From: Natrinema hispanicum
Lineage (GTDB): Archaea > Halobacteriota > Halobacteria > Halobacteriales > Natrialbaceae
Assembly: GCF_900111485.1 (NCBI RefSeq)
Contig: NZ_FOIC01000022.1
Coordinates: 1 to 41,363, forward strand
Length of the DNA stretch: 41,363 nucleotides
Reading direction: 5' to 3'
Of this stretch, positions 1,289 to 27,277 are shown piece by piece. Below the pieces are notes generated by a model. That model was not told the origin of the DNA. It did not search any database and saw nothing but the letters and a program-made list of their open reading frames with translations. The position numbers and the translations under genes are program-made. The first letter of the stretch is position 1. Each line of letters starts with the position of its first letter.

Positions 1289-3106
1289 ATGGCGAGTTCC
1301 GACCCGACACTTACGGAGGCAGCAGTCCGAGATCTGGCACGCCCCCAGTCATACGACCGGGGGGAAAACTACTACGACGAGGGTGCCGTTGTCGAACTCG
1401 TCCGGCGCGGTGAGACGATCCGAGCGGCGGTTGAAGGCAGCCAGTACGAGCCCTACCAGGTGCGGATCGAGCTCGACGAAACCGGGGTCGTCGACACGGC
1501 GTGTTCCTGTCCATACGATCACGGTGGGATTTGCAAGCACCGTGTGGCCGTCCTCCTGACGTATGTCTGTGATCCCGACAGGATCGACGAGCGACCGCCA
1601 GTCTCCGAACTGGTCGCCGACGCGGATCCCGAGGATCTCCGTGACGTTCTTGTCGACCTCGTCGAGAGTTACTCGGAGTTGGCAGAGCAGGTTGAGTCCC
1701 GGCTCGAACCACTAGACGCAGGAGATGAGGGTGACGACGCTCGCGACCGCACGCCCGACATCAATCGGAAGTCGATCCGCCAGCAGGTGCAGTACATTCT
1801 CCGTCCCACCGAGGGACGTAGCGCCCACGCGTACGACCCGTATGAGGCGGTCGAAACTGACGTCGAGAAGTTGCGAAACCTGCTCGACCAGGCACGGACA
1901 GCCGTCGAGGCCGGCGACGGCGAGACGACACTGGATATCCTCGAACCGCTGGTCGACGAACTCATGGACGAGGAGTGGCTCGCTCTCTCGTACGACGATT
2001 CGCACGCGATCTTCGAGTTTTTCGACGAGGTCGACCGAGTGCTGGCCGAGGCATTGCTCACGGCCGACCTCTCGGAGGCCGAGCGTGCCGACTGGGAAGA
2101 GCGGCTCTGGGCGTGGGAACAGGAGATGGAAGGCTATACCCACCAGCCACCGTACAGCGTCGCCCTCGAAGCGGCACAGCGGGGCTGGGACTTCGAGCCG
2201 GTCCAGCGGGCGATGCAGGGCGACATCGGCTACGCGGACCTCTGGGAGGGCGATCCGCCGTGGTATGCCGAGGACTTCGTCAGGGCCCGCCTCAACGTCA
2301 TCGAACGCCAAGACCGCATCGATGAGTACCTGAACCTGGCGGAGGCTGCGGACCTGATCGACGACTACGGGACCATGCTCGTCGAGGAGGGACGGATTGA
2401 CGAGGCGATCGAGTACGGCCGACGCAATCTGTACTCCCCGGACGAGGCACTCACGCTGGCCAAGGCCCTTCGAGAACACGACCGGCCGGAGGCCGCCCTG
2501 AAGATTGCCCAGCACGGATTGACCCTCGACGACAGCAGCGAGCAAGCGGAGCTGGCCGAGTGGCTCCGCGACCGGGCCAGCAGCATGGGCGAATCCGAGA
2601 TTGCGCTGGAGGCAGCCATTGCTGCGTTCGACGCCTCGCCGACGCTTGCGGCCTATCAGGCTACAGAGGAACTCGCTGGCGAGGAGTGGCCAACCGTCCG
2701 CGAGGAGCTACTGGAATCGCTTGCAGACAAGGACACGAGACAGCGGACTGCGCGACGGCACGTCGAGATTTTTCTATACGCGGAGCGATACGACGAGGCC
2801 ATTGCCATCGCGGACCGCTTTTCGGATTACAAGGTCGTGGAACCGGTCGTCGAGGCCGTCTGGGAGGAGCACCCCCACTGGACGATCAACGCCTGCAAGG
2901 AGCAGGCCGAGCCTCTCATCGAGGAGGGACAGTCTCAGCAGTATCACCATGCGGTGGACTGGCTGGAGCACGCGGGAAAGGCAGCCCAGGCGTCGGGAAA
3001 CCTCGACGAGTGGCGTACCTACGTGGAGGACTTACGAGACGAGCACTATCAGAAGTACAAGTTGCGACCGATGCTGGTGGATCTGTTGGAGGAGTTCTCG
3101 TGTTGA
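1289..3106 (+). CDS. SWIM zinc-finger protein with a long helical-repeat (TPR-like) region
   Basis: 605 residues. The N-terminus has a SWIM zinc finger of pattern C-x-C-x7-C-x-H (Cys72, Cys74, Cys82, His84; CSCPYDHGGICKH). SWIM domains occur in proteins that bind DNA or other proteins. Residues from about 110 to the end are mostly amphipathic helices arranged as TPR-like repeats, for example around IDEAIEYGRRNLYSPDEALT and YDEAIAIADRF, suggesting a protein-interaction solenoid. The C-terminus (EDLRDEHYQKYKLRPMLVDL) resembles the separated C-terminal piece of the disrupted gene at 3788-6621, so the two genes are paralogs, with the second lacking the SWIM domain. The gene stands alone on the plus strand. 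Its partner is unknown, and the nearby zinc-finger, SprT-like and pRiA4b-like genes may be functionally linked (inference). Confidence 0.85.
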   Translation: MASSDPTLTEAAVRDLARPQSYDRGENYYDEGAVVELVRRGETIRAAVEGSQYEPYQVRIELDETGVVDTACSCPYDHGGICKHRVAVLLTYVCDPDRIDERPPVSELVADADPEDLRDVLVDLVESYSELAEQVESRLEPLDAGDEGDDARDRTPDINRKSIRQQVQYILRPTEGRSAHAYDPYEAVETDVEKLRNLLDQARTAVEAGDGETTLDILEPLVDELMDEEWLALSYDDSHAIFEFFDEVDRVLAEALLTADLSEAERADWEERLWAWEQEMEGYTHQPPYSVALEAAQRGWDFEPVQRAMQGDIGYADLWEGDPPWYAEDFVRARLNVIERQDRIDEYLNLAEAADLIDDYGTMLVEEGRIDEAIEYGRRNLYSPDEALTLAKALREHDRPEAALKIAQHGLTLDDSSEQAELAEWLRDRASSMGESEIALEAAIAAFDASPTLAAYQATEELAGEEWPTVREELLESLADKDTRQRTARRHVEIFLYAERYDEAIAIADRFSDYKVVEPVVEAVWEEHPHWTINACKEQAEPLIEEGQSQQYHHAVDWLEHAGKAAQASGNLDEWRTYVEDLRDEHYQKYKLRPMLVDLLEEFSC

Positions 3107-3283: not shown

Positions 3284-3772
3284 ATGCAAACCGAGACGTG
3301 GATCGAGCGAACGATCATCGACCAACTCACCACCCACGACAGACGCTACAAACACGATTACGGTGGCGTCGAAAAAACGACCGATGACCTCGTCTCAGCC
3401 TGTGTGAAACTCGATCTCATCACGTCAGGGGACGAACCCGGACTTCCATCGATAGAGCAGTTTTTCACAGCGGACGCGGATCTCGAACCAGAGGTCGAGA
3501 CGACACTCGAATCACTCGAGGAACGGGGCCTGATTGAGCGTGTCGGGGAGCGCGAGCGGCTTGGCCCACCGCTCGAACCGGGTGACTACGAGACTACAGT
3601 TCTCTGGGAGCCGACAGTCGATGGACGGGCCGAAGCGACCGCAATTCGCGAGGCATACTCCACAAAGGTCGAAGCACTCGCGGAATCGCACGGCACAGAA
3701 TCAGACGAGTTCAAGGAACAAATCGTGACGCTCGCCAGAACGTACGGCATCCTCCCGAACTACTTCGGATGA
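3284..3772 (+). CDS. Hypothetical acidic protein, possible winged-helix fold
   Basis: 162 residues from the ATG at 3284 (MQTETWIERTIID); an in-frame GTG at 3266 would add six residues. No family was recognised. The middle segment, with ESLEERGLIERVGERERLG followed by short beta-like strands, resembles the recognition helix and wing of winged-helix proteins (for example LEERGLIERVG), but this is only a local pattern. The C-terminus is helical. It is 177 bp downstream of the SWIM gene and converges on the disrupted helical-repeat gene and its tnpB element. Confidence 0.6.
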   Translation: MQTETWIERTIIDQLTTHDRRYKHDYGGVEKTTDDLVSACVKLDLITSGDEPGLPSIEQFFTADADLEPEVETTLESLEERGLIERVGERERLGPPLEPGDYETTVLWEPTVDGRAEATAIREAYSTKVEALAESHGTESDEFKEQIVTLARTYGILPNYFG

Positions 3773-3859: not shown

Positions 3860-4010
3860 TGAACTACCCCGACCTACTCGCCGCCTTCGGCGGCTCCTTG
3901 AGGGCGGGGCTTCCCGTTTCAACGACACGACTTGCAGACACGGAAACCGAGTCCACAGCGGTCGCAGTCTCTGCAGGCGTAGATTCGGAGTGAACCACTC
4001 CTAGTGTGTT
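3859..4010 (-). ncRNA. Predicted omega RNA (reRNA) scaffold of the tnpB element
   Basis: In characterised IS200/IS605 elements the guide-RNA scaffold is the 3' part of tnpB plus the right end, with the guide starting immediately outside the element. Here the right-end hairpins at 3867-3909 would form the 3' scaffold. The guide would read from about 3858 downwards, that is, the start of the interrupted gene's tail. The 5' limit is a guess from family size, and no promoter is visible. Confidence 0.4.
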
Positions 4011-5162
4011 GAGACCACGCGACAGCACGTTCACCGACGCGTTCCAATCCCTGTCCAGCTCGAACCCGCACGCTGGACACGAATGCTCGCGTTTCCAGAT
4101 GGGCTTCCACGTCGAAACGCCGCACGAGGCGCACTCCTTGGTCGTCCCGCGCGGCTCGACTTCCTTGACGTGACAGCCGTTCTTCTCGCCGTGGTGTTTG
4201 AGGATGGTAATGAAGTCGCGCCACCCGACCTCGGCCTTGTTCCGTGCATTCTCCGGCGATTCGAGCATCTCCTTTACGGAGAGGTCTTCGACGAAGACGG
4301 CGTCGTACTCAGTGGTGTAGAAATGCGCGAGCTTGTGCTTGAAGTCTCGCTTCTTGTTTGACATCCGGGCGTGGACTTCCGCGACACGGCGGCGTTGCTT
4401 CTCCCAGTTGTGTGATTCGTACTCTTTTCGAGAGAGCGAGCGTTGCTCGCGTTCGAGCCGCTCGCGGTCAGCGGATAGGTCGAGCCGCTCGATCGAGCGC
4501 CCATCCGAATCGTGGATAAAGTTGAGCACACCGAGGTCAAGACCCACGGTGTCATCGGGATGGATGTCTTCGACGGCGGGTGTCTCGGGTGTATCAGTCT
4601 TGATGCAGAACGAGACGAACCACGCGCCGGTCGGCTCTTTCTTGAGAGTCACCTCTTTGATTTGCTCGTGGTCAGGGAGGTCTCGATGGAGGCGAATCGG
4701 AATTTCGCGAGTTTTGCCCTTAAGTTTCGTGAGGATGAGGAGTCCGCGTCCGTTCGGGCCACTCTTCTTGTCGAGTTCGAAGCCTGATTGGCGGTACGTG
4801 AAACTCCTGTACTCTCGGGGCTTTTTCCAGTTCAACGATCCTACGTTGTAGCCCTTGGCTTTGAGCTTCCCGAGGTTCTCGATGTTGTCTCGGATGCGCT
4901 CGACGGCCTTCTGCAGGACGGTGGAGTAGACCTGTTTCAGGTCTGGCCACCAGTCTTTCATCGTGGGTAGCGTGTCGCGGATGCTCCAGACGCGCTGGCG
5001 GAGCGTGCCCGCGTCGTTGGGAATTTTGTTGAACTCGCAGAGTGCGTGGTTGTAGGTTTGCCGCACGATGTTCCGGGTCCAGTCCATCGCTTCGCGTTGC
5101 TCGGTGGTTGGGAGCAATCGAAAGCGAGGGCTGTATATCATCCGATGTGTCTCTATGTACAA
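3864..5162 (-). CDS. tnpB: TnpB RNA-guided endonuclease (IS1341-type)
   Basis: 432 residues, full length for the family. The N-terminal OrfB HTH region begins YSPRFRLLPTTEQREAM. The RuvC-like active site is intact by inspection: Asp in VGLDLGVLNF, Glu in AVFVEDLSV, and Asp in ELDRDWNASVNV. The zinc ribbon has CASC and CPAC pairs. TnpB nicks or cuts DNA next to a short transposon-associated motif under guidance of an RNA from the element's right end. The C-terminal tail (SPALKEPPKAASRSG) is encoded by the hairpin end, showing the usual overlap of the gene with the guide-RNA scaffold. An internal ATG at 5141 (MIYSPRF) is an equally good start. No transposase gene is adjacent. Confidence 0.9.
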   Translation of the reverse strand: MYIETHRMIYSPRFRLLPTTEQREAMDWTRNIVRQTYNHALCEFNKIPNDAGTLRQRVWSIRDTLPTMKDWWPDLKQVYSTVLQKAVERIRDNIENLGKLKAKGYNVGSLNWKKPREYRSFTYRQSGFELDKKSGPNGRGLLILTKLKGKTREIPIRLHRDLPDHEQIKEVTLKKEPTGAWFVSFCIKTDTPETPAVEDIHPDDTVGLDLGVLNFIHDSDGRSIERLDLSADRERLEREQRSLSRKEYESHNWEKQRRRVAEVHARMSNKKRDFKHKLAHFYTTEYDAVFVEDLSVKEMLESPENARNKAEVGWRDFITILKHHGEKNGCHVKEVEPRGTTKECASCGVSTWKPIWKREHSCPACGFELDRDWNASVNVLSRGLNTLGVVHSESTPAETATAVDSVSVSASRVVETGSPALKEPPKAASRSG

Positions 5163-5271
5163 TAGATTCTACGGTAAAGATTCTGGTTGTCCCGTGTTTG
5201 AGACTCGTGCGGATGCCGTATCCCCGCCCTACTCGCTCTCTCCGATCGCTCCTTGAGGGCGGGGGCTTGGC

Positions 5272-6621
5272 ACCCTCACCGCCACCGCTAAATTTTCGAA
5301 CCGTCGGTCACGTCCCAGCGTCTGTATCGTCTGGAGGTGTTCGGCGATCTGTCTGTAATACTTGCGACGACTCGCGTCGGTAGCGGCCTTCTTGATTTCG
5401 CGACGATACGCATCGAAGTACGCGGCGGGATCGTGGGCTCCGAGTTGGTCGATGTAGGCTTCGAACAGATCGAGATCGTGGGCGTTCGTGACTGTCTCGA
5501 AGGCGTCTTCGATCCGATCCTCTCGCAGGTAGATTTCGATGATCGTGTCGGCGTCCCACTGACTATCCAGTCGGTTGACAATCGTGTCGACGACGTGCTC
5601 CCGCTCGTCGTCGGGCGTTGCTGCCTTCAGCCGCTCGAAGTACGGCCAGTCCGTCCGTTCGACGAACAGCCCAATTATCGTATCCCGAAAGGCGTCGGCG
5701 TCCGTCTCCTCGTACTGATCGACAAGGAACTCACAGAGCCCGACTGTATCTGACCCAGAGAATGCCACAGTCCCGTACTCCGCGACGGTAATAGCGGCCT
5801 CCCGTTCACCTTCCTCCACTAGGAGGCGAGCATATCGGAGACAGAGGTGTCGAGATGCAGGATAGTGTCGGTTGAGGATGCCTCCGAGTTCTGCCTGCTC
5901 GTCGATGCGGTCGAGCAGTTCCACGTAGCCGCGCAGCCAGGCGGTTTCGGTGAATTCGTCGAGTAACTCCTCTTCGCCGGCGTGGGTAGTGAGATCACCG
6001 CGTCGCCACGTATCCGCATCCTCGTCGCACTGGCTACCGTAGAGTCGATCGGAATCGAGCTGTTCGTCGAGTCGATCCCGCAACAGGGACTGCCAGTAGC
6101 GATAGTCGTCCTCGGTCGTACACAACTCCCAGAGCGCCTCTCTGAAGTGCTGGGGGGAATCCTCCCTCCTCGTGTTCGTTGAGCCACTGGTCGAAACAGT
6201 ATTCGATGTACTCGCGTTTCTCCTCGTGCGGGAGGTTCGCCTCACGGATAGTGGTTGCGTAGTTCTCGATGGCGTCCTGAAAGGTTTCGTCGTGTTCGAA
6301 GCCACCCCGATGAGGATCGAACTCGTGGAGGTGATCGCGCCTCGCCTCGAACATCGCACGATAGATGGTCGCAGCGTCGCGGTATCGCCTCTTCTCGATA
6401 TACGACTCTGCCCGGTCTTCGTACGTGGTGAAGTTTGGTGCAGACTGGTACCCGTATTTGGATTCGATTTCGTCTCGTAGTTCGTAGACATCGAGATCCG
6501 ACGTGTCCAGAAAGGAATGAAACCGCCGTTCGAGGCCCGGGTCGGCTGCCAATTCCCGGGCGAGAAACGTTCGGAGTACCTCCGGCGGCGTCTCTTCGAG
6601 TTTCTTCTCGATGTCGCTCAT
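5272..6621 (-). pseudogene. Helical-repeat (TPR-like) protein, frameshifted and cut by a tnpB element
   Basis: The gene starts at 6621 (MSDIEKKLEETPPEVLRTFL), its ATGA overlapping the stop of the upstream zinc-finger gene. The first frame is good to about residue 155 (QWLNEHEE). The sensible continuation (DSPQHFREALWELCTTEDDY) is in another frame, so there is a frameshift near 6155-6175 in a run of G and C (GGGAGGATTCCCCCC). The second frame runs to NLAVAVRV near 5272 and then enters the element's left end. The missing tail is at 3788-3859. The product is a helical-repeat paralog of the C-terminal part of the SWIM protein at 1289 but lacks the SWIM finger. The frameshift could be a sequencing error; the insertion is structural. 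Loss of function is likely. Confidence 0.8.
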
Positions 6622-7607
6622 ATCTCCATGTCGCTGAACGCCCAGTCTTCGCCCAGTCGCCGGTGGAAACCCTCGGTTTCGATCGTCTCTCGCAGCCGCG
6701 ACCGAACTGCCTCGTCGAATTCGAACCGGTAGTCCAGTTCCTCGCGAAGATCCCAGTACCGGGGAATTTTCGGCGTTGAATCGTGATCGACCGTTGCCAG
6801 AATCGACGCCAGTAGGTATCGGTCTTCGTAATCGATTTGCTCGTCAGCGAGCAACGCGTCGAGCAGGTCGGCCGCGGCGTGCTGGTCGGCGTAGAACGTA
6901 TGTGGGAGCACGCCCCGCACCCAGAACAGTTCTTCGGTGACGACCTCTTGGACGTGGTCTGCAACCGAGTACTCGGGATGGCCGATCCCCCAGCCGTAGG
7001 TGAGTGATTCCTCCCCGCTGACGTCTCCCATCGACTCCCAGAACGACCCGAGATACACCAACGCTTCGACGGGGATTGCCGCAACGCCATCGTTCAGTCG
7101 CGTCCTGATGACGTGGCGTCCGACCACGTTCTCGATGAACGGGCTCACGAGGGGCTCCTCGGCTGTATTCTCGCGCGAATAGGCATCGATTACCTCTATG
7201 AGAAAGTCCCAACCCTCGCGCGTGGCGATTTCGTCGAGAGCCGCTGCGGCCGGCTCGTAAAACGCCCAGAGGATCCCGCGATACGTGTCGTAGTCTTCTC
7301 TGTCGTGGTACTCCCGGAGCTCTCGCTCGTACCGGCCGATCAACCTGAATGCAGCGTCGACGTCTCCCTGGGCAGCCTCCTCGAGCGTGGTTTTCAGCCC
7401 GTCGCTCGCGGCTTCAAGCCCCCGCTTCTTGCGCTCCGAACTCCGTTGCTGCATGTTGGCGCCGAGTGCGTCCGAAATCGAATCGAGGAACGCGTCGAAC
7501 GACGACAGCGGGTCCTCGCTTTCTGGCTCATCCGTCGGACAGTCGTGCAGACGAAGGCGGCTTAACGTGTTGAACGTCTCGCCGCAGTCGGGGCATTCGT
7601 GTGGCAT
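6618..7607 (-). CDS. Paralog B: zinc-finger protein of an unrecognised haloarchaeal family
   Basis: 329 residues. An N-terminal finger (CPDCGETFNTLSRLRLHDC) has Cys5, Cys8, His21 and Cys23. After an acidic linker comes a helical body with the signature RHVIRTRLNDG, then VEALVYLG, then YGWGIGHPEYSV and, near the end, PRYWDLREELDYRFEFD. The same blocks recur in the proteins at 8672-9511 and 10595-11641, defining a local three-member family. The catalytic function is unknown, and no P-loop or protease motif is seen. The gene sits between the SprT-like gene (87 bp upstream) and the broken helical-repeat gene, to which it is translationally coupled by ATGA. This suggests one operon. Confidence 0.8.
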   Translation of the reverse strand: MPHECPDCGETFNTLSRLRLHDCPTDEPESEDPLSSFDAFLDSISDALGANMQQRSSERKKRGLEAASDGLKTTLEEAAQGDVDAAFRLIGRYERELREYHDREDYDTYRGILWAFYEPAAAALDEIATREGWDFLIEVIDAYSRENTAEEPLVSPFIENVVGRHVIRTRLNDGVAAIPVEALVYLGSFWESMGDVSGEESLTYGWGIGHPEYSVADHVQEVVTEELFWVRGVLPHTFYADQHAAADLLDALLADEQIDYEDRYLLASILATVDHDSTPKIPRYWDLREELDYRFEFDEAVRSRLRETIETEGFHRRLGEDWAFSDMEI

Positions 7608-7694
7608 CGTTCGTGTTCGTCTGGATATGCGAGGAGGAGACGTATCTGTGTTCGGGGATCTCCTCCTACGGAATCCGAAAGCGTGGCGATACGG

Positions 7695-8675
7695 TCACTC
7701 CAGGTAGTTCGTTCCCGGATCGATGGTTTCGGGTCGCTCATCCGCGAGATAGGCGACCGTTCGCGCGCCACACTCCTCACACCGGTAGCGTTCGGGCTGT
7801 CGGGTCTGTTCGGTGTGTTGTCCGTATCCCGTGCTGAAACAGCCGTTGGGACAGGCGTGGACGATGCGCGGTACCTGCCAGGGGACGCTCCCGACGTGAC
7901 ACCGCCCAGGTTCGAGCTCGGTCGGACTGTCGTCGATGCCGCAACTGAGGAGTGTCGTGTCACACTCCGGACAGGCGTACAGCCAGGGATTTTTGATCCG
8001 CTTGGTACGCCGCTGGTAAGGCCAGGCCGTACAGCCGTTCGGACAGGCCAGCAGATAGCGGGCAGTGCTTCTGGCGTCGTCTGGCTCATCCTGGTCCTCG
8101 GGTGTCCGCCACGGAATGCTATCGACGTAACAGGTCCCCGGGTCGGGATCGGCCGGCCGCTCGCCGACATCGTAGCTGATCGGGCGCGTCCCACACTCGT
8201 CACAGGTGTACTGCCAGGGCTGTTTGATCCGCTTGGAGCGCTGGACGTATCCGCGCTCGAAACATCCTCTTGGGCACGCGAGCACGTACTCCGCGTCGAC
8301 GGTATTGTCTCCCTCGTAGCGGGCGACCGGATCCGCGCCTGCCCGGCGTGCTGCGGTCTTCCACGCGTCGCCGTGGGGCTGGGCGTCTGGACCGACCGTC
8401 TCAAGCACATACGCGTGTGCGACCTCGTGACGGACGGTATCGCGCCACCGGTCGTCGCGGCCATCCTCGAACAGCCGGCGGGCGATCCGGATCTCGTATT
8501 CGACTGTGGCCTCGGCGTCGCGGTCAGCAGCGGAGAGCCGACGGTACTCGCCAAGCTTGCGGCGAAAGGAATCAGTGACGTCGACTCGAACCGCGGCGGG
8601 ATCCAGCGTGTCGAACCCCGCCCGATCGATCGTGGTCTCGATTTCCTCATGAACGTGCGTTTCGTATTCCGTCAT
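7695..8675 (-). CDS. SprT-like zinc metalloprotease with three tandem zinc-ribbon units
   Basis: 326 residues. The N-terminal third carries the SprT-like active site HEVAHAYVLE (H-E-x-x-H) followed by HGDAWKTAARRAGADP, the usual third-ligand region of SprT/Spartan-type proteases that act on DNA-bound proteins. The remainder consists of three repeats of about 60 residues, each with a C-x3-C pair (CPRGC, CPNGC, CPNGC), a basic stretch such as RSKRIKQPW or RRTKRIKNPW, and a C-x2-C pair (CDEC, CPEC, CEEC). Each repeat ends with D-P-G or E-P-G plus C or N. Three ribbons in tandem is unusual for this family, which usually has one. The start overlaps the stop of the upstream paralog (ATGA, 8672-8675). 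A role in clearing DNA-protein complexes is inferred only. Confidence 0.85.
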   Translation of the reverse strand: MTEYETHVHEEIETTIDRAGFDTLDPAAVRVDVTDSFRRKLGEYRRLSAADRDAEATVEYEIRIARRLFEDGRDDRWRDTVRHEVAHAYVLETVGPDAQPHGDAWKTAARRAGADPVARYEGDNTVDAEYVLACPRGCFERGYVQRSKRIKQPWQYTCDECGTRPISYDVGERPADPDPGTCYVDSIPWRTPEDQDEPDDARSTARYLLACPNGCTAWPYQRRTKRIKNPWLYACPECDTTLLSCGIDDSPTELEPGRCHVGSVPWQVPRIVHACPNGCFSTGYGQHTEQTRQPERYRCEECGARTVAYLADERPETIDPGTNYLE

Positions 8676-9511
8676 GTGTCGTTCCCAGGGCCGTATTCGT
8701 CTGCAGCGCGTTCCAGATTGAACCGGTAGGAGTCATCGAAGTGTCGGAGACGGCCAGGGTTGATCGACGAGCCAATGACGGCGAGCAGTCGCTCGTGTAG
8801 GCCGTCGGATATCTCCACCTGGTAGTCGAGTTCGGTGTCTGGCTCCCAGTACTGTGGAAAGTCCGGGAAGTCCTGTTCGAACGGCGCGTGCAGACAGCCA
8901 ACGAACACGAGATCCTCAACGACATCCGGCGATTCGAGAAGCTGTTCGAGAAGATCGATTCCGGCCTCGGGTTCGGCGAACGTGGCGTGTGTGAGTATTC
9001 CCATCGCCCACGAGTCGTCGCCGCTCTCAGCACGTTCGAGGGCCCGATCGAGGACGGCGACCTTCGGGTGACCGACTGCCCAGCCGAACGCGGCGGTCGA
9101 TTCCCAGGCCCACTCGCTGTCGTCCTTGACCGTCACATCGGCGAGGTACTCGAGTGCCCAGGTCGGAATGGTGTCGATGCCCTCGCGGATTCGCGTCCGG
9201 ATCACACAGCGGGCGACGACGTTGGCGAGTATCGACGAACAGTGATGATCGCCGACTCCGGGCGGGTATGCATCGACACACTCCTCGAGAAACGTCCAGT
9301 CGATCCCGTCAGCGGTCGCGGCGGTATCGAAGAGATCGATTACGCCTTCAAGATACTGGTCCCTGATCTCCTGCAACCGACTCCAGCCACCGCGATCGAG
9401 TGCAGTCTGTATCGACTGGTTCCAGGCGGCAAGCAGGCTGTAGACGTCACTCTGTTTGCCGGGCGTCGCGTACTCGAGTGCGCTCGTCAGCGGATCGATG
9501 TCGCGTGGCAT
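8672..9511 (-). CDS. Paralog A: member of the same unrecognised family, without a zinc finger
   Basis: 279 residues, aligning by eye with the C-terminal bodies of the proteins at 6618 and 10595. Shared blocks are ILANVVARCVIRTRIREGID with TWALEYLAD, FGWAVGHPKVAV, THATFAEPEAGIDLLEQLL and PQYWEPDTELDYQVEI. It lacks the N-terminal CCHC finger and instead begins MPRDIDPLTSALEYATPGKQ. It is cytoplasmic and acidic, with no membrane segments. It lies 3 bp downstream of the pRiA4b-like gene and overlaps the SprT-like gene by 4 bp, so all three are almost surely co-transcribed. Function is unknown. Confidence 0.8.
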   Translation of the reverse strand: MPRDIDPLTSALEYATPGKQSDVYSLLAAWNQSIQTALDRGGWSRLQEIRDQYLEGVIDLFDTAATADGIDWTFLEECVDAYPPGVGDHHCSSILANVVARCVIRTRIREGIDTIPTWALEYLADVTVKDDSEWAWESTAAFGWAVGHPKVAVLDRALERAESGDDSWAMGILTHATFAEPEAGIDLLEQLLESPDVVEDLVFVGCLHAPFEQDFPDFPQYWEPDTELDYQVEISDGLHERLLAVIGSSINPGRLRHFDDSYRFNLERAADEYGPGNDT

Positions 9512-9514
9512 AGC

Positions 9515-10075
9515 TTACTGTTCGTCCAAATCGGGGTACTGTGGCGGTGCTGCGCCCTGTTCGTCGACAACAACCGGATCATCCTCCAGCGATCCCTCCT
9601 GCGTGTCCTGGAGTTCGATGTAGTGTTCCCAGTTGTCGCCCATATCGAACGTGTAGGAGAGCGCGCCCAGCGTGTCCGGATCGAGTTCGTCGATCGTTGT
9701 CTCCGCGGCGTTGCCCTCTGGCGGCGGATTCGACTGGAGGTCGCGAAACCGCTCTTTGGCCGCTTCGGTGGCGTCGTCGGGTACAGCCCGCTCGAGAAAC
9801 CGGTCGATCTCATCGTCATCCATCGGTTGCCAGCTCTCACCCCCACTGTACAACTGTGGATGGACGTAGCTCCGAGTGGCGATCCCGTGTTCATCACGTG
9901 TGAGAAACTCGTAGGCGTGGCTATCGTAGCGGTCGAACGCGTCGAAAATGGCCTCGTGAAGATCCGCCAGGGTGCTGGACCCGCCAATCTCGATCTCGCG
10001 GTAGACTTCGGTCTCGGGCTCAAACTCCAGTGGTGGGTTCGGCAACAGCAGGACTCTGAACCTGTAGATTGTCAT
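9515..10075 (-). CDS. Plasmid pRiA4b ORF-3-like protein
   Basis: 186 residues from the ATG at 10075 (MTIYRFRVLLL), which matches the usual beginning of the family; a longer frame to 10144 adds a stretch without family likeness. Typical features are the early beta strand, the TLADLHEAIFDAFDRYDSHAYEF block and the DMGDNWEHYIEL block near the C-terminus. The family is widespread on plasmids and mobile elements and in some SWIM or SEC-C fusions, and its biochemical role is not established. The gene is first in the leftward operon with paralog A, the SprT-like protease, paralog B and the helical-repeat gene. The upstream AT-rich stretch near 10176-10187 could hold the promoter. Confidence 0.8.
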   Translation of the reverse strand: MTIYRFRVLLLPNPPLEFEPETEVYREIEIGGSSTLADLHEAIFDAFDRYDSHAYEFLTRDEHGIATRSYVHPQLYSGGESWQPMDDDEIDRFLERAVPDDATEAAKERFRDLQSNPPPEGNAAETTIDELDPDTLGALSYTFDMGDNWEHYIELQDTQEGSLEDDPVVVDEQGAAPPQYPDLDEQ

Positions 10076-10285
10076 ACGTCCCCTTTGTGCTCCCTCATGT
10101 AGGAACTTACTCATCTGGTCTCCGAACCGCATCTCGATCTTCACTGTCGAGATACATGAGTACCGAACACGTCCAATTTAATTACGCTGGTGAACACCCC
10201 CACAGCATGACTGATGGTCTAGAACACAGGCGAGCGATAGCCAGCAAACCCAAGTACGGCGTCGACCGTAGACGATTGTAGTTGC

Positions 10286-10588
10286 ATGCGCCTGACGTTC
10301 GATGATGGAACACCGCTACTCGAGGATGCCCCCGACAGTGTTCCCTACGCCGAGTGGGATGACCGCGTCGACGAGTATCGATCGCAGGCCTATCGCTATC
10401 ACGACCTCCGTCAGTGGGCGACTCCCTCCAGTCGCGACCAGCAGACTCTCGCACAGGCGACGATGGCTGGTGACTCCGTCGAAGACGATGCCAGAGCCTA
10501 CAGCGACCTTGCTCTCTCACCTGCCGTCGCGATCGAACCTCGAGCGAATCACTACCAGGAAAATCTTACTTCCCAGGTTGACGTATAA
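10286..10588 (+). pseudogene. Truncated N-terminal piece of a superfamily 2 (XPB/Rad25-like) helicase
   Basis: A 100-residue frame (MRLTFDDGTPLLEDAPDSV) resembles the N-terminal damage-recognition-type domain of haloarchaeal Rad25/XPB-like helicases: a beta-rich start, then YAEWDDRVDEYRSQAYRYHD and a SPAVAIEPR stretch. In the full proteins this is followed by a YQ-containing Q-motif-like segment and the Walker A motif. Here the reading ends 11 codons later (NHYQENLTSQVDV) with no helicase motifs, so about three quarters of the gene is absent. It may be a relic or a small stand-alone domain. The family call is from memory of the motif order and is moderate. It ends 6 bp before paralog C. Confidence 0.5.
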
Positions 10589-10594
10589 CCGTCA

Positions 10595-11641
10595 ATGAGC
10601 TACGAGTGTGACCACTGTGGTGCGTCGTTCGAGACTCTCTCGCGTTTCAGGCTTCATGAGTGCTCGCCCGAACCCGCCGACGATACACCAGTTGACTCAT
10701 CGTCACCAGCTGACTCGGCTCCTGATTCAGTGGCTGTCGAGACCGAATATCCAGCACTCGTGGGTGACCTCCCGGACATCATCGAGGAAGCCAAAGAAGG
10801 CGACCTGTCGGCCCTCTATCGCGCAATCGCGGAGTACGAGACGGCACTGACGAAAACATCGATACAGACTGAATCACGGTCTGACGATGCTCATCACGAC
10901 ATATTGTTTGCATACTACGAGCCACTTGCCGAGGGGCTGGATACGGCAGCGCAAGCGAACGGCTGGGACGTGCTCGTTGAGTTCGTAGACGCGTATAACC
11001 CGCGAGAACAAGACAGGCTTCCTGAGGTTGCACACGTGATTGCGAACGCAGTGGGGCGCTCTCTCGTCCGGACCCGCCTCTCCGAGGGACTCGATTCGGT
11101 CCCGGCGGAGGCACTCGCGTACCTGGGTGAGATTCCTGAGTACGTGGACGAATTTGCGGTAGCGTTCGAAGAATCGTACACCTACGGGTGGGGGATCGGT
11201 CATCCTGCCCATTCAGTGGGTGACCAGTTACGCGCACTGGCCGACACAGAGCACAAGTGGACGAGTATCACGCTCAAAACGGCGTTCTATGCTGACCAGC
11301 ACACGGCAATTGATGTTTTCGAAGAATTGGTGACGTCCGAGACTCTTACCGGAACCATCGAACGAATGACGTTTGAGGTTGGTGCAGCACGGTACTACTT
11401 CGGAGCGGTTGCAGACCTAGAGCGGGACTTCCTGAACCCCCATGTTCCGATGTACTGGGAGTGGGAAGAGGAGATCGACTACACATTCACGTTGGATCCG
11501 GACGTGAAACAACGGATTCGCCAGCTTGCTCATGAGACAGGGGTCACCGAGGATCTTCCGGCAGATTGGACGCTCCCGGACCTCGATCCAAGTCCGTTCT
11601 CGGAGTTTGAAGAAGAGCTGTTCGCAGACGAAGAACGGTAA
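10595..11641 (+). CDS. Paralog C: zinc-finger protein of the local family
   Basis: 348 residues, start MSYECDHCGASFETLSRFRL with Cys5, Cys8, His21 and Cys23, nearly superposable on the finger of the protein at 6618. The body repeats the family blocks: NAVGRSLVRTRLSEGLDSVP, AEALAYLGEIPEY, YGWGIGHPAHSVGDQL, FYADQHTAIDVFEEL and PMYWEWEEEIDYTFTLD. It is on the opposite strand to the other two paralogs and downstream of the helicase fragment (6 bp). The C-terminus is highly acidic. The two fingered copies are closer to each other than to the fingerless one. Function is unknown; a DNA- or RNA-contacting adaptor is possible but not shown. Confidence 0.8.
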   Translation: MSYECDHCGASFETLSRFRLHECSPEPADDTPVDSSSPADSAPDSVAVETEYPALVGDLPDIIEEAKEGDLSALYRAIAEYETALTKTSIQTESRSDDAHHDILFAYYEPLAEGLDTAAQANGWDVLVEFVDAYNPREQDRLPEVAHVIANAVGRSLVRTRLSEGLDSVPAEALAYLGEIPEYVDEFAVAFEESYTYGWGIGHPAHSVGDQLRALADTEHKWTSITLKTAFYADQHTAIDVFEELVTSETLTGTIERMTFEVGAARYYFGAVADLERDFLNPHVPMYWEWEEEIDYTFTLDPDVKQRIRQLAHETGVTEDLPADWTLPDLDPSPFSEFEEELFADEER

Positions 11642-17627: not shown

Positions 17628-18764
17628 CTATCGCCCGAGAATTCCTCGTAACTGCCGAACGAGAGACTTCGACTGCATCTCTCTCGAGGATTCAGACTCC
17701 TCTTCTCGAGCCGCAGATCTTCCCTCGTATGTCTCGAGTCGCCGCTCAAGCCGTTCGATCCGCGCAGTCTTCGCCTCCACTTCTCTCTCGAGAGACGTCG
17801 TCTGCTTTCGAAGCAGGGAGACCCTCTCTTTGAGGTACACATGCTCGCGATCTCGCGAAGATCCCACTTCCTGAGTCTCTACCCCACTCTCCGAGGGCTC
17901 GTAGAACTCAGAGGTGTGTGCAATTGCTCGAGCAATGGTCTTCTCACCATACGTCGAACCATCGGCATAGTGTTCCTCTCCCCACTTCGGACGGTCCAGT
18001 TTCGATCGCCGAAACAATCGGTCCATCTGTCCGGCATGGGCACCAGTCCAGAACGCAAGCAAACAACACAGCGCCATATCGGCCTCTGACTGACTCGTAT
18101 ACCCGACAGTCGACCCGTTCCAGAGGCGTTCAAACTTCTCGCCATTCGCCGCATTTCGAGCCTTCTCGAGTAACTCGTCGTCAGAGAGACGAGCTTTCGA
18201 CCCAGACGCCTCACGAACATCGTCATCACCCTTCCCAACATACTCTAAATGAACCCCCTCGAGTTCGCGTTGCCGAGATTCGATTTGCGTTGGCGTCCCC
18301 GAGACGTGCTTGCCAGTGACGGTGAAGTACCGGGCGTGGTCGTACATCTCGATGTGGCCACGTCGATTGCGACCTTCAGGAAGTTCACCACGTATCAAGA
18401 CGTGATAGCCAGTCCCCGATGGCGAGACTTCCGTATACGAATCCAGCCGACTAACGATTGTCTTCGCTTGCTCAGTTGGTTTCCCAGTATCCGGGTCGCG
18501 ACAGTCGTCCAGATCAATCCCAACGAATGGATCTGACTTCGTGAACACGAACCCAAGCCCATCGACCGCAGTGGAGCCCGATTCCATGCACTCGAGAGCA
18601 GTCTCGAGATCACACCACGTCCCTTCGTCCGTCGTCGATGCAAACCCTGCCGTCTGCGGATCAACCGGAATCTTCGTCTTCTCGCCGTTGCGCTCTGCTC
18701 GCTTCCAGCAGATCCACTGGTCTCGAGTACACAGCGCCTCCGGGAGAGTCATTCTATCACCCAT
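17628..18764 (-). CDS. NrS-1-polymerase-like primase (archaeo-eukaryotic primase type)
   Basis: 378 residues, start at 18764 (MGDRMTLPEAL); an internal ATG at 18752 is an alternative. The primase-polymerase core is visible: the D-x-D motif in VGIDLDDCRDPDTG (Asp84, Asp86), the S-G-x-G-x-H type motif in SPSGTGYHVLIRG (near 114-121), and EMYDHARYFTVTGKH near 139-153. A helical-bundle domain like that of NrS-1 polymerase follows (SEADMALCCLLAFWTG, then MDRLFRRSKL). The C-terminus is a coiled coil (LEREVEAKTARIERLERRLE). Unlike NrS-1 polymerase there is no SF3 helicase domain. It probably primes second-strand synthesis of transferred or replicating element DNA (inference). It begins 5 bp after virB4. 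Confidence 0.75.
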   Translation of the reverse strand: MGDRMTLPEALCTRDQWICWKRAERNGEKTKIPVDPQTAGFASTTDEGTWCDLETALECMESGSTAVDGLGFVFTKSDPFVGIDLDDCRDPDTGKPTEQAKTIVSRLDSYTEVSPSGTGYHVLIRGELPEGRNRRGHIEMYDHARYFTVTGKHVSGTPTQIESRQRELEGVHLEYVGKGDDDVREASGSKARLSDDELLEKARNAANGEKFERLWNGSTVGYTSQSEADMALCCLLAFWTGAHAGQMDRLFRRSKLDRPKWGEEHYADGSTYGEKTIARAIAHTSEFYEPSESGVETQEVGSSRDREHVYLKERVSLLRKQTTSLEREVEAKTARIERLERRLETYEGRSAAREEESESSREMQSKSLVRQLRGILGR

Positions 18765-18769
18765 ATCTC

Positions 18770-20878
18770 TTAATCCGAAAGCCCCAGCGAACTCTGACCA
18801 CCACTCATCATACGATCAGAAACACCACCAGACTGACCCGGCAACTCCGATCGAGACTGCTCCTTCGGATCGAAATCGATCACGGCCGTCTCGTCGTCCA
18901 TCGCCCGGACTTCGATCCCGCGCCATTCACCGTCGACACCGACAAGCGCCTCAGAATACCCCGTCCGATCGTTCCCCGGAACAGCCTCTTGGACGAAACG
19001 CATCTGTGCCGAATTGAGTCCGAACTCGTTGGCCCATTCACGATCCATCCCGTCGAGATGGTGGAACTGCTTGATCGCACATTGGTCGATGATCGCCTCC
19101 GACTCTGGATGCTGGAAAAACTCATCAACAGTCTGTGTGACAAGCCGAATCGAGAGGTTGTGATGGCGATGATGCCGGAAGACGATCTCGAGGTACTCGA
19201 GACTTGCTGCATCCTGCATGATATACCGCGCTTCGTCGATGACGAAGACGACCTCCTTGTCCGTCTCCTTCGCACGCTCGTAGACCAGCGATATCAACAA
19301 CTGCATGATCAAGCTTGTACTCCCACCGAGACTCCCTTCCTGCTGGGCGAGATCCAGATAGATCACCTTCTCGTCGCGGATATCAAACGCCGTCTCACGC
19401 CCCAGATTCTCGTAGCGACCACCCACGGAAAACGGACGCAACTGATCAATGAGCCACGTCGCATCCTCTCGAATCTTCGTCGTCTCTTCGTCCGTCCGGA
19501 CAACGTACTCCGTGGGCGTCTCAACCATCTTCTCGAGGATGTCGAGTACGTCCCGCATCGTCGGACTCTCGTTGTGATGAGTCGCGATATCGTCGGTGAT
19601 TCCGTTCCTCGCATACGCCTTCTCGATCGCCGTCTCCAGCGTAGTCCGTCGATCCCCGAGTGAAATCCCACGGGTCGCAAAGTAGTTCGACAAGAAGCTC
19701 ATCACGCTATCGAGCTTCTCCCGATACGGACTCGCATCCTCGCCCATCGCCTGCTGGACACGTTCGGGTGTAGGCTTGATCTCGAGGGGATTCAATCCCA
19801 TATCACCGCCAATCGTGATTCGCTCGCCACCGACTGCCTCAGCGACACCAGCCCAGTTGTTCAATGGCTCGAGGATGATCCCAATACGATCCTCGCTCTG
19901 CTCGATCGACCGAACGAAATTCTGCTTCGAGCCGAACGATTTACCAGAGCCAGGATCGCCGATCGTGAACATCGCATAGCCGTTCTCTCGAGCAAAGGGA
20001 TCGATCACGACCGGACTCTGATTCTTCCAGTGAGCGCCAAACTCGACACCGCCGTCCTCGAGAATCGTCGCGTTGTGCGGCGACGCAAGCAACGCACCGA
20101 TCGCACCACCTAACGCCGTCGCCTCTCGACCAAACGAATTCGGTCCCACTGGTGCCGCAGCCTGAATTGCCAGATCCTGCTTACAGATCGCTGTTTTCGG
20201 CGAGAGACCCGCTGGCTGTTCACGAAGCCGACTACGGATCGTCCGAACGTCCTCACGCAACTCATCACGGGAATCCGCACGGACCGTGATGAACATCCCC
20301 TGATCGAAGACCCGACTTCCGTTCTCGACGCTTTTGTAGGTTGAAAGCGCTTCGTTCGCACGTTCTTGCAGATAGCTCCCTCGAACGGTTCGCTCGAGGT
20401 CTGCATCAGCCTGGAGGTCGTCGGCAACACGCTGGAGTTCGTCTCGAGCCTGCTGCTGACTCTTCGGTGTGATGTGCACCGTCAGATCGAACTCGATATC
20501 CGTGAGCTCGAAGAGTTCTGTCAGATAGCCGTCTTTCGGATAGTCAGGATAATCAGCAATGTAGAGCGTCGATGTCCAGTGATCGCCAACACGGGCAGTC
20601 CGTGTATCCCACTCGATCGCCGCTGGTGCGATGACGTGCTGGTGATGCTCAGATAGATCGTCGAGGATCTCTCCTTCACCAATACCGTCGTCCACAGTTG
20701 TCTCCTCGAGGAGATCAGCTAACTCGATCTCCTCAACCTCCTCCGCTCGCCAGTAGTCCCACGCAATCTTCACGAGAAGCGTAAGCAGCGCCGTCACCCC
20801 AACAGAGAGAGCAAGCCCTGCTCGAGTCCCCATCTCAGGAAGCAAACCCTGTATCTGTCCCACGACCAACTCAATCAC
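18770..20878 (-). CDS. VirB4-family conjugation ATPase
   Basis: 702 residues from the GTG at 20878, which overlaps the upstream stop as GTGA; a longer frame to 21019 is out of character. An N-terminal hydrophobic helix (LALSVGVTALLTLLVKIAW) anchors it. The P-loop GDPGSGKS is near residues 307-314 and Walker B VVFVIDEARYIM near 543-554. Later motifs include LVTQTVDEFF and the conserved C-terminal QCAIKQFHHLDGMDREW region typical of VirB4/TraC. The protein is expected to power pilus or channel assembly for a type IV secretion system. The gene order with VirB3-, VirB6- and VirB2-like neighbours supports this. It is GC-rich with extreme CTCGAG frequency. Confidence 0.85.
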   Translation of the reverse strand: MIELVVGQIQGLLPEMGTRAGLALSVGVTALLTLLVKIAWDYWRAEEVEEIELADLLEETTVDDGIGEGEILDDLSEHHQHVIAPAAIEWDTRTARVGDHWTSTLYIADYPDYPKDGYLTELFELTDIEFDLTVHITPKSQQQARDELQRVADDLQADADLERTVRGSYLQERANEALSTYKSVENGSRVFDQGMFITVRADSRDELREDVRTIRSRLREQPAGLSPKTAICKQDLAIQAAAPVGPNSFGREATALGGAIGALLASPHNATILEDGGVEFGAHWKNQSPVVIDPFARENGYAMFTIGDPGSGKSFGSKQNFVRSIEQSEDRIGIILEPLNNWAGVAEAVGGERITIGGDMGLNPLEIKPTPERVQQAMGEDASPYREKLDSVMSFLSNYFATRGISLGDRRTTLETAIEKAYARNGITDDIATHHNESPTMRDVLDILEKMVETPTEYVVRTDEETTKIREDATWLIDQLRPFSVGGRYENLGRETAFDIRDEKVIYLDLAQQEGSLGGSTSLIMQLLISLVYERAKETDKEVVFVIDEARYIMQDAASLEYLEIVFRHHRHHNLSIRLVTQTVDEFFQHPESEAIIDQCAIKQFHHLDGMDREWANEFGLNSAQMRFVQEAVPGNDRTGYSEALVGVDGEWRGIEVRAMDDETAVIDFDPKEQSRSELPGQSGGVSDRMMSGGQSSLGLSD

Positions 20879-21966
20879 TGGTCGGCCCTCCGTTGATGAT
20901 CGACCGCTGGATGATCGCGAATCGCATCCGCGCCATCGTCGTACTCGTGTTCTTCTCCGTTCCAGAAGTCCATCGAGAGAACGAACAACTCGACCGTCGT
21001 GAGCCGATGAGCAGACCACCCGGACACCTTCTGGATAAACTCCGTCTGGAGGCTATGACATCGATTTTCAAGCTTCTCGAACATAGCCGCTCGAATCTCT
21101 GCGTCGGTCATATCATTGCGACGAGTCACGAACGGGTTGAACAGAAACCCGATCACCGGAAACGAGGTGAGTTTCTCTGCAGGAGAACGCTCGTCCTGAT
21201 AACGGTCGTAGACCTCGAACGGGTCAACTTCGACACCGATGAAATATCGGATCTGCTGGGCACCCTCGAGATCCCGAGGCCGTTGCTCGCGATACTCCTC
21301 GAGTAACCCTCGAAAAATCGGGTTCTCCTCAACATCACTATCAGAGAGCCGCCCATCGATTCGCTCGATCAGTCTCTCCACTGGGAACGAACGAGTCGTC
21401 GCGTGGAACTTGAGTCTAAAGTCAAGCTCCTTATTCGCGAACTCCTCGCCGAGTTGCTGGACCTGTGCCCAATCACCGGACATCGCGAAGTCCATGTTCC
21501 CGGGGTCGATCTCGAGATACGCTTCCATCGCTCCATCCGAACGCTCGATCGCACCGGTTCCGGGCCATGCACGCCTGATGTTCGTGAGATCCTGCGTTCG
21601 CTCATCCGGTTTGAACGGCGTGTAACTTACGAGCCCACCATCAGTACCCGACTCACCAGACTCGACTGCACTGTACGTGAATCGAGGCCGTTTGCAGTAG
21701 TAGCGATAGACATCTCCCAACCACGTCGATGCGGGAAGATGATTCGGCGATGCATAGACGACTGCACCACCTGCTACAATCCCCAGGAGCACGAACGGCA
21801 AGATCGCCCCCTCGAGCCCAATTAACCCGCCAACGAGAAGCCCCGCAATCGGGAAGCCAAGGAGAACGTAGACATCCCCCTCCTCGATATTCAGAATCGG
21901 GATTCGACTTTCTTCGCCCAGTTCGTCCATGATTCGCCGGCCAGCCGCACCGCTTTCTTGTGTCAC
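20875..21966 (-). CDS. VirB3/PrgI-like and VirB4 N-domain-like conjugation protein
   Basis: 363 residues from a GTG at 21966 overlapping the upstream stop. Two adjacent membrane helices near residues 31-70 (VYVLLGFPIAGLLVGGLIGL and then LPFVLLGIVAGGAVVYA) resemble PrgI/VirB3 proteins. The rest (RTQDLTNIRRAWPGTGAIER, YLEIDPGNMDFAMSGDWAQV, FPVIGFLFNPFVTRRNDMTD) resembles the N-terminal domain that VirB4 proteins carry before their ATPase domain. Haloarchaeal systems thus appear to split this domain from the ATPase, which follows directly. It ends with GTGA overlap to virB4. Confidence 0.65.
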   Translation of the reverse strand: MTQESGAAGRRIMDELGEESRIPILNIEEGDVYVLLGFPIAGLLVGGLIGLEGAILPFVLLGIVAGGAVVYASPNHLPASTWLGDVYRYYCKRPRFTYSAVESGESGTDGGLVSYTPFKPDERTQDLTNIRRAWPGTGAIERSDGAMEAYLEIDPGNMDFAMSGDWAQVQQLGEEFANKELDFRLKFHATTRSFPVERLIERIDGRLSDSDVEENPIFRGLLEEYREQRPRDLEGAQQIRYFIGVEVDPFEVYDRYQDERSPAEKLTSFPVIGFLFNPFVTRRNDMTDAEIRAAMFEKLENRCHSLQTEFIQKVSGWSAHRLTTVELFVLSMDFWNGEEHEYDDGADAIRDHPAVDHQRRADQ

Positions 21967-23102
21967 TTGAAGTACCCCGGATCGTTCTCAGTGCGACGGT
22001 ACGCCGGGGTATCGTCCCAGCCATACGCGTCTCCCACGACGTTATCGTGAGCTGCTCGCTCCCCACTCTCACCGCTCGAATCTCCAGAGCCACCGCTTTG
22101 GCGCATCTTTGAGGCAGCAGAATAGCCAACAGCCGCCTTCGGGCCCCACATCGCAGTCGTCGTTGCAGCAGCGGGGCCAGCAATCACGCCAGCACCGACT
22201 ACTGCACCTGCAGTGACTCCTGCCTTTGTCGTTGCACCCACGATTTTCGTCGTCATCGGACTGGCGTACTTGAACAGCTTCCAGACGATAGCGATCGAGA
22301 GCAATGGCAGCGTGACTGCAATGAGGTAACTCAAAAACGCACTGTCTGGAATCAACGCCGACTCTGTCCCCTCACTGAAGAGCAATTCATAGCCTTTGAA
22401 CAGCAATGCCACTGGAATCGGCATGATCGCAAGCGGCACGAATTTCAAAGAGACCGTTCTCGCGATGTGCGAGACGACGGGAAGATTCCCGTAGGCCAAT
22501 GCAATCCCGATCGGCATCGCGTAGATCAAGATGTATAACAGAACCTCTCGAAGGAAGAATAGCGCCTGCAGGGTCCACATTGCAACTGCACCAACGCCCG
22601 TGAGAAAGAGCGCAAGGATCGGGTTTGAGATACTCAACGCGAGTAACCCCATCATCGCACTCGTCACAGTTGCAATATCCGGAATAAGCGCAATGGTGAA
22701 TCCGTCGACCAAATAGAGTGCCAAGACCGCGACCCAGTACCAGGTGACGATCAAAAACGCACCAGTCCACGCACTTCGCTTCGTCTTTCGTGTCTCGTAT
22801 GCACTGCCGATATTGAAAATCCGAATCGCATGCCGGCCCTGTACGCACATCACCAGCAATAACAGGGCAACGAGCATGATCTCGCCACTGACAAGGCTGC
22901 TGTAGATGCCATCCCAGGGAGTATTCGACGGCTGGCCGAACACGAACACACCGTCCGTTTCCGGTGTTGGTGTTCCAAACACCTGGGCAGTGATCGCAGC
23001 ATACCCATCCGCCAACCCCTCCTGGAACCATTCAATGAGCTTGTCGATTGCGTCTTCGAACCACTTGATCCCGACATCGGAGAGCGACCACGCTAACTGC
23101 AT
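21963..23102 (-). CDS. VirB6/TrbL-like multi-pass membrane protein
   Basis: 379 residues, start MQLAWSLSDVGIKWFEDAID. Hydrophobic segments occur at about 75-90, 110-130, 135-165, 170-190, 195-215 and 225-300, consistent with six or more membrane helices, followed by a Gly/Ala-rich region (TAGAVVGAGVIAGPAAATTT) and a hydrophilic tail (SGGSGDSSGESGERAA). This layout is that of VirB6/TrbL channel proteins in conjugation systems. The gene overlaps the small gene upstream by 10 bp and the next gene by GTGA, so it belongs to one operon. The match is by topology and context rather than by strong motifs. Confidence 0.65.
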   Translation of the reverse strand: MQLAWSLSDVGIKWFEDAIDKLIEWFQEGLADGYAAITAQVFGTPTPETDGVFVFGQPSNTPWDGIYSSLVSGEIMLVALLLLVMCVQGRHAIRIFNIGSAYETRKTKRSAWTGAFLIVTWYWVAVLALYLVDGFTIALIPDIATVTSAMMGLLALSISNPILALFLTGVGAVAMWTLQALFFLREVLLYILIYAMPIGIALAYGNLPVVSHIARTVSLKFVPLAIMPIPVALLFKGYELLFSEGTESALIPDSAFLSYLIAVTLPLLSIAIVWKLFKYASPMTTKIVGATTKAGVTAGAVVGAGVIAGPAAATTTAMWGPKAAVGYSAASKMRQSGGSGDSSGESGERAAHDNVVGDAYGWDDTPAYRRTENDPGYFK

Positions 23103-23317
23103 GCAACCCTCTCGAGTTCGATCACACAGCCAGCATCCTCGAGCTCGACCACGCCATCACCACTCTCGAACTCCACACTCGAGGCGGGTACAACACACTC
23201 GAATCTCCAAGCTCTCTCGAGAACTGTACAACTCCAAACCAACAATCCGGTAGCACCCCTCCATCGAAGTGTTCGAAGAACAATACCTCTCCACACCATT
23301 CCTACCTCATCAATCAT
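23093..23317 (-). CDS. Small coupled protein in the conjugation operon
   Basis: 74 residues (MIDEVGMVWRGIVLRTLRWR), start overlapping the previous stop as ATGA and end overlapping the next gene by 10 bp. This tight coupling argues for a real gene. It has a hydrophobic N-terminal helix with Arg/Trp (LLVWSCTVLERAWRF) and a beta-like acidic C-terminus (SVEFESGDGVVELEDAGCVI). No family was recognised. A small membrane-associated accessory of the secretion channel is possible. Codon bias and CTCGAG content resemble the neighbours. Confidence 0.5.
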   Translation of the reverse strand: MIDEVGMVWRGIVLRTLRWRGATGLLVWSCTVLERAWRFECVVPASSVEFESGDGVVELEDAGCVIELERVACS

Positions 23318-25014: not shown

Positions 25015-25054
25015 TAGGGCCTCTGCCTCGAGTCGGACTGGATACCGATCGGCA

Positions 25055-25474: not shown

Positions 25475-25710
25475 TTAGTGAATTTCAGACCTACTGAGAA
25501 ATCTCGTGAGAACCGACGGATTGGTTCAGAAATTTATTCATTAGATCGTCAAATTCACTCGCTGATGACTGAATATATATCTTGTGTATTATATTAGCTC
25601 GGAATTATAGTGCATGGATGAAGAACTGTTTTTGTATCGGCCATGAAAATATCCGTCAGAAATTGAGTATACTACGTTGTCATCGGTTATTAGCTGTAGG
25701 CCATTATCAG

Positions 25711-26657: not shown

Positions 26658-26679
26658 AAGGATTTCTGCTCACTCGGCC

Positions 26680-26689
26680 CTTATAAAAG
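26680..26689 (-). promoter_or_regulatory. TATA box for the DUF7509-like gene
   Basis: On the minus strand the sequence reads TCTTTTATAAG. Its centre is about 27 bp from the ATG at 26657, as expected for a leaderless haloarchaeal transcript. Confidence 0.6.
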
Positions 26690-26723
26690 AGGGCATTTTC
26701 AAGATATCTTGGCTTGACAAAGG

Positions 26724-26730
26724 CTAAAAG
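26724..26730 (+). promoter_or_regulatory. Possible TATA box for the wHTH gene
   Basis: CTAAAAG lies about 28 bp before the ATG at 26756. The divergent region between the two genes is only 98 bp, so both promoters and any operator share it. Confidence 0.4.
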
Positions 26731-26755
26731 TTTGCCGCCAGTACTCTAGACCAAG

Positions 26756-27169: not shown

Positions 27170-27231
27170 TGAGTGCTGTCAGAAAACCAGTTTTGATATG
27201 TAGAGGTCAATCTTCCCGCTCCTGTAAATCG

Positions 27232-27275: not shown

Positions 27276-27277
27276 AG

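Follow-up and report, generated by a model that had tools for sequence, protein, structure and literature searches.

What do three related proteins of no assigned family do beside a SprT-like protease in a haloarchaeal genome? The question is raised by a contig of Natrinema hispanicum (NZ_FOIC01000022.1; C35), the whole of which, 41,363 nt, forms the window analyzed here (all coordinates are window positions, unless a locus label is given). Protein A (6618-7607, minus strand, 329 aa, with an N-terminal C2HC finger and a probable helical solenoid), protein B (8672-9511, minus strand, 279 aa, without a finger) and protein C (10595-11641, plus strand, 348 aa, again with C2HC finger and probable solenoid) lie there with a pRiA4b ORF-3-like protein and a SprT-like zinc metalloprotease carrying three zinc ribbons, a combination that an earlier reading of the letters alone (the sequence-only reading) had taken for an undescribed accessory system. 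The gene set does recur across haloarchaeal families, with B tied to SprT and pRiA4b, and no paper describing it was found in the literature searched. Each subfamily of these proteins stands in its own conserved arrangement with enzymes of DNA-acting protein families; we tentatively favor the reading that they form a mobile adaptor module, which directs alternative DNA-acting enzymes (SprT or XPB-Bax1) to protein-blocked or damaged DNA.

The A, B and C proteins and their subfamilies

All three open reading frames (ORFs) are present where the sequence-only reading had placed them, and its grouping of them into one family by common motif blocks is borne out: pairwise BLAST relates A to C (37%, E 1e-67), A to B (31%, E 2e-30) and B to C (31%, E 2e-29), the blocks are conserved across the three, and their core, consisting of R-T-R, GW...GH and W, is kept in 23 members. 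As had also been claimed, two of the three carry a finger; its pattern in A and C is C-x2-C-x12-H-x4-C (C2HC), and the C2H2 finger profile PF00096 stays below its cut-off of 25.2 bits in both (17.7 in A, 13.6 in C). Apart from such sub-threshold fingers, A, B and C have no match above cut-off in Pfam, NCBIfam, PADLOC or PHROG. They form a new family, with partner enzymes of known classes.

The profile and structure searches that had been proposed as a check place A, B and C in no known family. The AlphaFold (AF2) models of A (predicted local distance difference test, pLDDT, 78.4; predicted template modeling score, pTM, 0.76) and of B (pLDDT 86.3, pTM 0.87) are all helical, and their best structural matches are HEAT/ARM proteins, at Z 9.8 for A (179 residues aligned, root-mean-square deviation 5.2) and Z 10.4 for B (211 aligned, deviation 5.2), against a background for helical models that reaches about 13-14; no specific homolog stands out from the search with either model. 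A HEAT/ARM-like helical solenoid is thus the likely fold class, and a specific relative is not named, because the matches fall within the helical-repeat background. With the HEAT/ARM α-solenoid adaptors, A and B share an all-helical, repeat-like predicted fold (Z up to 10.4, inside that background); they differ from them in having no sequence relationship.

In a family tree of 75 members, B belongs to a clade of nine sequences (support 100/100), eight of which occur with SprT and/or pRiA4b and the ninth on a 9.7-kb contig. A belongs to a clade whose eight sequences come from that module too and adjoin SprT, pRiA4b or a gene for a SWIM/helical protein. The clade of C mostly adjoins c5, an uncharacterized 330-aa protein, and a separate clade of 13 consists mostly of members beside XPB, Bax1 or a small protein, c9. 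Since the subfamilies fall apart in the tree and match their own partners, A, B and C are subfamilies of old origin that have come together here; the three-member local family of the sequence-only reading is therefore one family but not a local expansion, a tandem origin of A, B and C being ruled out by their three deep clades. The locus itself is a mosaic, as its parts have different closest relatives: C is about 100% identical to its counterpart in Natrinema hispanicum L036, whereas the A/B/SprT block is closest to Haloterrigena sp. H1 (L033), these two being the locus relatives of the window. A very divergent member, found in a Halococcus genome (L101:10949-12280), has, as a fusion at its N-terminus, a domain of some 150 residues and of no assigned type.

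Conserved arrangements with SprT and with XPB-Bax1

The operon around B lies on the minus strand. Its first gene encodes the pRiA4b ORF-3-like protein (9515-10069, 184 aa if started at the likely ATG, with a possible extension to a GTG at 10144), which passes the cut-off of PF07929 (66.8 bits against 26.6, E 2.5e-18) and matches PDB 2i1s weakly; B comes next, then the SprT-like protease (7695-8675, 326 aa), A, and finally a helical-repeat protein related to SWIM/TPR proteins, without the SWIM finger (5229-6621). The protease passes the cut-off of PF10263 (43.8 bits against 25.6, E 2.5e-11), and its HEVAH motif, its HGxxW with the third ligand and 12 of 12 ribbon cysteines are invariant across seven copies of 59-90% identity; with both HExxH and the third ligand in place, it is a predicted SprT-like zinc protease. 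The identities first read for the protease, with its three ribbons, and for the pRiA4b-like protein therefore hold. The coupling of most genes by ATGA overlaps holds in part: such overlaps occur at two of the four junctions (B/SprT and A/helical-repeat), but 3 bp separate pRiA4b from B and 87 bp separate SprT from A.

The order pRiA4b > B > SprT is shared by loci from Natrialbaceae, Haloferacaceae, Halococcaceae and Haloarculaceae, as seen in a neighborhood survey of the kind suggested at the outset, which covered gene calls and gene clusters around 72 loci; co-occurrence limited to one genome is excluded. The three genes are co-directional, with junctions of 3 and -4 bp in the window, in Haloterrigena H1 and in L113, and of 3 and -1 bp in L114; the B-SprT junction is -4 bp in L104 and 55 bp in L101. 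On a Halovenus salina plasmid with an integrase, the genes run pRiA4b-like (annotated as hypothetical, and called by position and size only), B, SprT, SWIM. Compared with their counterparts in L113, L114, L104 and L101, the window's proteins show 60-87% identity, and the ratio of nonsynonymous to synonymous substitution rates (dN/dS) is 0.14-0.36; the operon proteins are, to judge from their coding sequences, under purifying selection.

Searched for with its own profile, the three-ribbon SprT occurs in six of 391 haloarchaeal genomes, at seven loci, of which six are intact and have a family member adjacent in every case. At the seventh (G361), the gene lies in two pieces; on a Halalkaliarchaeum plasmid a transposase interrupts SprT, with a B remnant directly upstream, and the coordinates suggest that the two are the same record. 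The other SprTs of the window's genome have one or two ribbons and are located elsewhere. Another accessory type of SprT, having two ribbons and the motif HELVH (L133:7587-8438 and L164:3723-4487), occurs near a SWIM protein in the window's genome and near a family member in Halococcus dombrowskii. SPRTN (Spartan) is described as a DNA-dependent protease acting on DNA-protein crosslinks (PMC5127644). The window protein resembles SprT/SPRTN (PF10263) in its HExxH protease domain, its HGxxW third ligand and its SprT-type zinc ribbon; it differs from them in having three tandem ribbons, not one or two, and in being accessory, plasmid-borne and locked to the new family of putative adaptors and to a pRiA4b-like protein.

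As the other main partner of the family is XPB-Bax1, the network is wider than the SprT operon. Within 6 kb of 65 family loci from 50 family-bearing genomes, Bax1 is found at 14 loci (0.40 expected), pRiA4b at ten (0.17) and SprT at eight (0.15), with Poisson P values of 2e-17 to 7e-12, which are overstated because related genomes are treated as independent; the fixed gene geometry is independent of these tests. Archaeal XPB-Bax1 is a helicase-nuclease that unwinds and nicks DNA (PMC7293015). The partner of the sister subfamily resembles it (PF16203/PF18458 with PF05626) in having XPB, with damage-recognition domain (DRD) and helicase domains, beside Bax1/DUF790; the family-linked Bax1 proteins are accessory short copies (about 450 aa), present besides the near-universal chromosomal Bax1, and the family-linked XPB-Bax1 pair is preceded by c9 and divergent from the solenoid protein. 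At seven loci the family member is divergent from c9-XPB-Bax1, with 56-61 bp between the starts. In L118 and L099, too, pRiA4b and a family member have intact XPB-Bax1 nearby.

The window has a remnant of XPB only, an ORF of 100 aa directly before C (10286-10588, plus strand), which matches PF18458, XPB_DRD (47.8 bits against a cut-off of 26, E 1.3e-12), and is 58% identical to residues 1-94 of a haloarchaeal accessory XPB; it comprises the damage-recognition domain and the start of helicase domain 1, and complete helicase domains 1 and 2 are missing. At the equivalent place, Haloterrigena H1 retains XPB residues 1-196, the window about 1-94, and in both the remnant is divergent from the pRiA4b-B-SprT operon. 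In Natrinema hispanicum L036, C is in frame with the XPB remnant, giving 451 aa. C as an XPB-family fusion protein was considered and rejected: the in-frame fusion is limited to that locus and the window has a stop, and the ORF is therefore treated as a remnant beside C.

Two further proteins accompany these loci. The protein c9, of 119 aa and without a Pfam match, stands between the divergent member and XPB-Bax1 in L079, L084, L089, L093-L095, L097, L120 and L137. The protein c5 (L095:5019-6011 and relatives), which belongs to no Pfam family, is the most frequent neighbor (16 loci); it often lies 47-53 bp downstream of the family member and is sometimes followed by a CcbP-type calcium-binding protein. 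L142, L144, L152 and L157 hold accessory XPB-Bax1 pairs without the family that nevertheless keep CcbP, c5, pRiA4b or SWIM proteins as neighbors, so that the accessory network extends past the family.

Possible functions and the surrounding genes

A family profile built from 23 members finds the family in 46 of the 391 haloarchaeal genomes sampled (about 12%) at E <= 1e-20 and in 53 at 1e-5, the extra seven being finger-only or weak matches; a search of 295 genomes of the phylum gives hits in the same order only, and no member outside it. Several large haloarchaeal plasmids carry family members. Plasmids, conjugation genes and TnpB insertions support an accessory and mobile character, as the sequence-only reading had proposed. 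Viral cargo was considered and set aside, with no relatives in IMG/VR or among INPHARED phages and no PHROG for the family.

On the adaptor reading, the family would consist of helical-solenoid adaptors, usually with one N-terminal C2HC finger, on plasmids and integrated elements. Solenoid and fingers would attach to DNA, or to a substrate bound to it, and provide the docking site of the enzyme. In one arrangement, B would position SprT, whose ribbons would grip the DNA and whose protease domain would cut proteins blocking it or crosslinked to it; in the other, the adaptor would recruit or regulate XPB-Bax1 for unwinding and nicking. The mobile element would so carry a portable kit for protein-blocked or damaged DNA. 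It is from this set of partners that we infer an adaptor and repair function of the module. The copy in the window may be partly decayed, because its helical-repeat gene is frameshifted and its XPB a remnant.

Four points weigh against this reading. No SprT (0 of 32) has an intact Bax1 within 12 kb, so that a single machine is not shown; the two arrangements are most simply read as enzyme modules that can replace one another beside one shared adaptor family. A clade of 21 sequences consists mostly of members without a conserved partner. The co-localization tests count related genomes as independent, as said above. Finally, it is the type of fold that points to an adaptor, and its structural matches do not rise above the helical-repeat background.

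A defense module is rather unlikely. In it, the adaptors would detect phage or plasmid DNA entering the cell, or proteins bound to DNA, and the target would be destroyed by SprT or XPB-Bax1; the patchy, mobile distribution (46 of 391 genomes; plasmids) fits this, as does a helicase-nuclease such as XPB-Bax1, a common defense pairing. A SWIM zinc-finger and helical-repeat protein (1289-3106, plus strand, 605 aa; PF04434, E 8e-8), which is near the family at seven loci, matches the PADLOC candidate PDC-S62 (E 1.2e-21), and an ATPase neighbor matches PDC-S27, both belonging to a set of putative candidates named on guilt-by-embedding (PMC12988326). However, the likeness to PDC-S62 is limited to the N-terminal SWIM region: the best stretch, residues 7-134, extends over no more than roughly the first 130 of the profile's 566 positions. 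The operon shows no toxin or abortive domain, and strong PADLOC hits are no more frequent among neighbor proteins (about 9 of 143) than among random chromosomal proteins (about 10 of 129). The defense-island enrichment that the sequence-only reading had looked to for support is thus not found, and the lack of such a signal against the random-protein control weakens the defense explanation.

The SWIM protein had also been called a paralog of the helical-repeat protein. Pairwise BLAST between the two is not significant (E 0.013), but profiles do relate them: the helical-repeat gene matches SWIM profiles at E 9e-102 (SWIMa) and 1.9e-6, two SWIM profiles align at 99.9% probability, and the gene's relatives elsewhere do have the SWIM finger. 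In this assembly, the helical-repeat gene is frameshifted: the reading frame from 6621 stops after codon 195, and the G6 run at 6152-6157 is one base longer than in Haloterrigena H1; L033 and L113 have unbroken copies, of 480 and 467 aa. Neither this frameshift nor the XPB remnant was part of the sequence-only reading. Upstream of the SWIM gene, positions 506-730 hold a fragment similar to the C-terminus of archaeal proteins of the ATPase_2/DUF234 type (PDC-S27 relatives); on its other side follows the c24 gene (3284-3772, plus strand, 162 aa), conserved, of no assigned function and a recurrent neighbor (five loci).

It is improbable that the operon serves the housekeeping of its mobile element, whose DNA it would protect or process, for instance by removing adducts of relaxase or of replication proteins as the element conjugates or replicates; the window's conjugation-like genes speak for this explanation. 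A conjugation-like cluster of a haloarchaeal element (17628-31426) comprises a protein with an NrS-1-type primase-polymerase-associated domain (17628-18764), a TraG-like ATPase (18770-21019), a TrbL/VirB6-like protein (21963-23102; PF19590, TrbL_3, E 1e-206) and a coupling-protein/HerA-like protein of 1256 aa (27656-31426). A 1260-aa ORF near C in Natrinema hispanicum L036 resembles this last protein, by length and place only. In keeping with a housekeeping role, Cdc6/Orc1 proteins are the commonest neighbors (6 of 143), and the Halovenus operon is on an integrase-bearing plasmid; against it, many family loci are on long, megabase-size contigs, and conjugation genes are not among the recurrent neighbors.

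Hitch-hiking, in which unrelated accessory genes would collect in common insertion hot spots without joint function, is quite improbable. The gene content around the family is indeed mosaic, and TnpB and other transposase genes are frequent; in the window, a TnpB of the IS200/IS605 type (3864-5162, minus strand; OrfB_IS605, E 2.6e-19; Cas12f1-like_TNB, E 1.8e-19) has inserted behind the helical-repeat gene. The genes nevertheless keep a fixed order, strand and spacing (3 bp, -4 bp, about 61 bp) while the proteins diverge to 60-70% identity, the three-ribbon SprT is linked exclusively to the family, and partners are subfamily-specific. That the members are transcription regulators, binding DNA via the C2HC finger to control the neighboring enzymes, would agree with the divergent genes, their spacing of about 61 bp between starts and the finger in most members, but is very improbable for large solenoids with no helix-turn-helix, which keep their arrangement where the finger is missing (clade B and part of the XPB clade) and of which B is co-directional and inside the operon.

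The family and the role of XPB in haloarchaea

The adaptor reading has a wider form, in which a modular haloarchaeal system would use one solenoid family to serve interchangeable effectors (a Spartan-type protease or XPB-Bax1) for protein-blocked DNA; in this form it is doubtful. If true, the system would follow a logic comparable to that of crosslink and excision repair in eukaryotes, with the difference that it travels as cargo; it would also account for the role of the extra haloarchaeal XPB-Bax1 copies. The role of XPB in haloarchaea is a long-standing open question: Halobacterium repairs UV photoproducts in the dark in a wholly UvrABC-dependent way, and the XPB/XPD homologs have been suggested to act otherwise (PMC1590041). 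The A/B/C proteins add an uncatalogued family, present in about 12% of the sampled haloarchaeal genomes and with a clear operon for testing, and a partner family common to accessory XPB-Bax1 and a Spartan-type protease provides a testable handle on what XPB does in haloarchaea.

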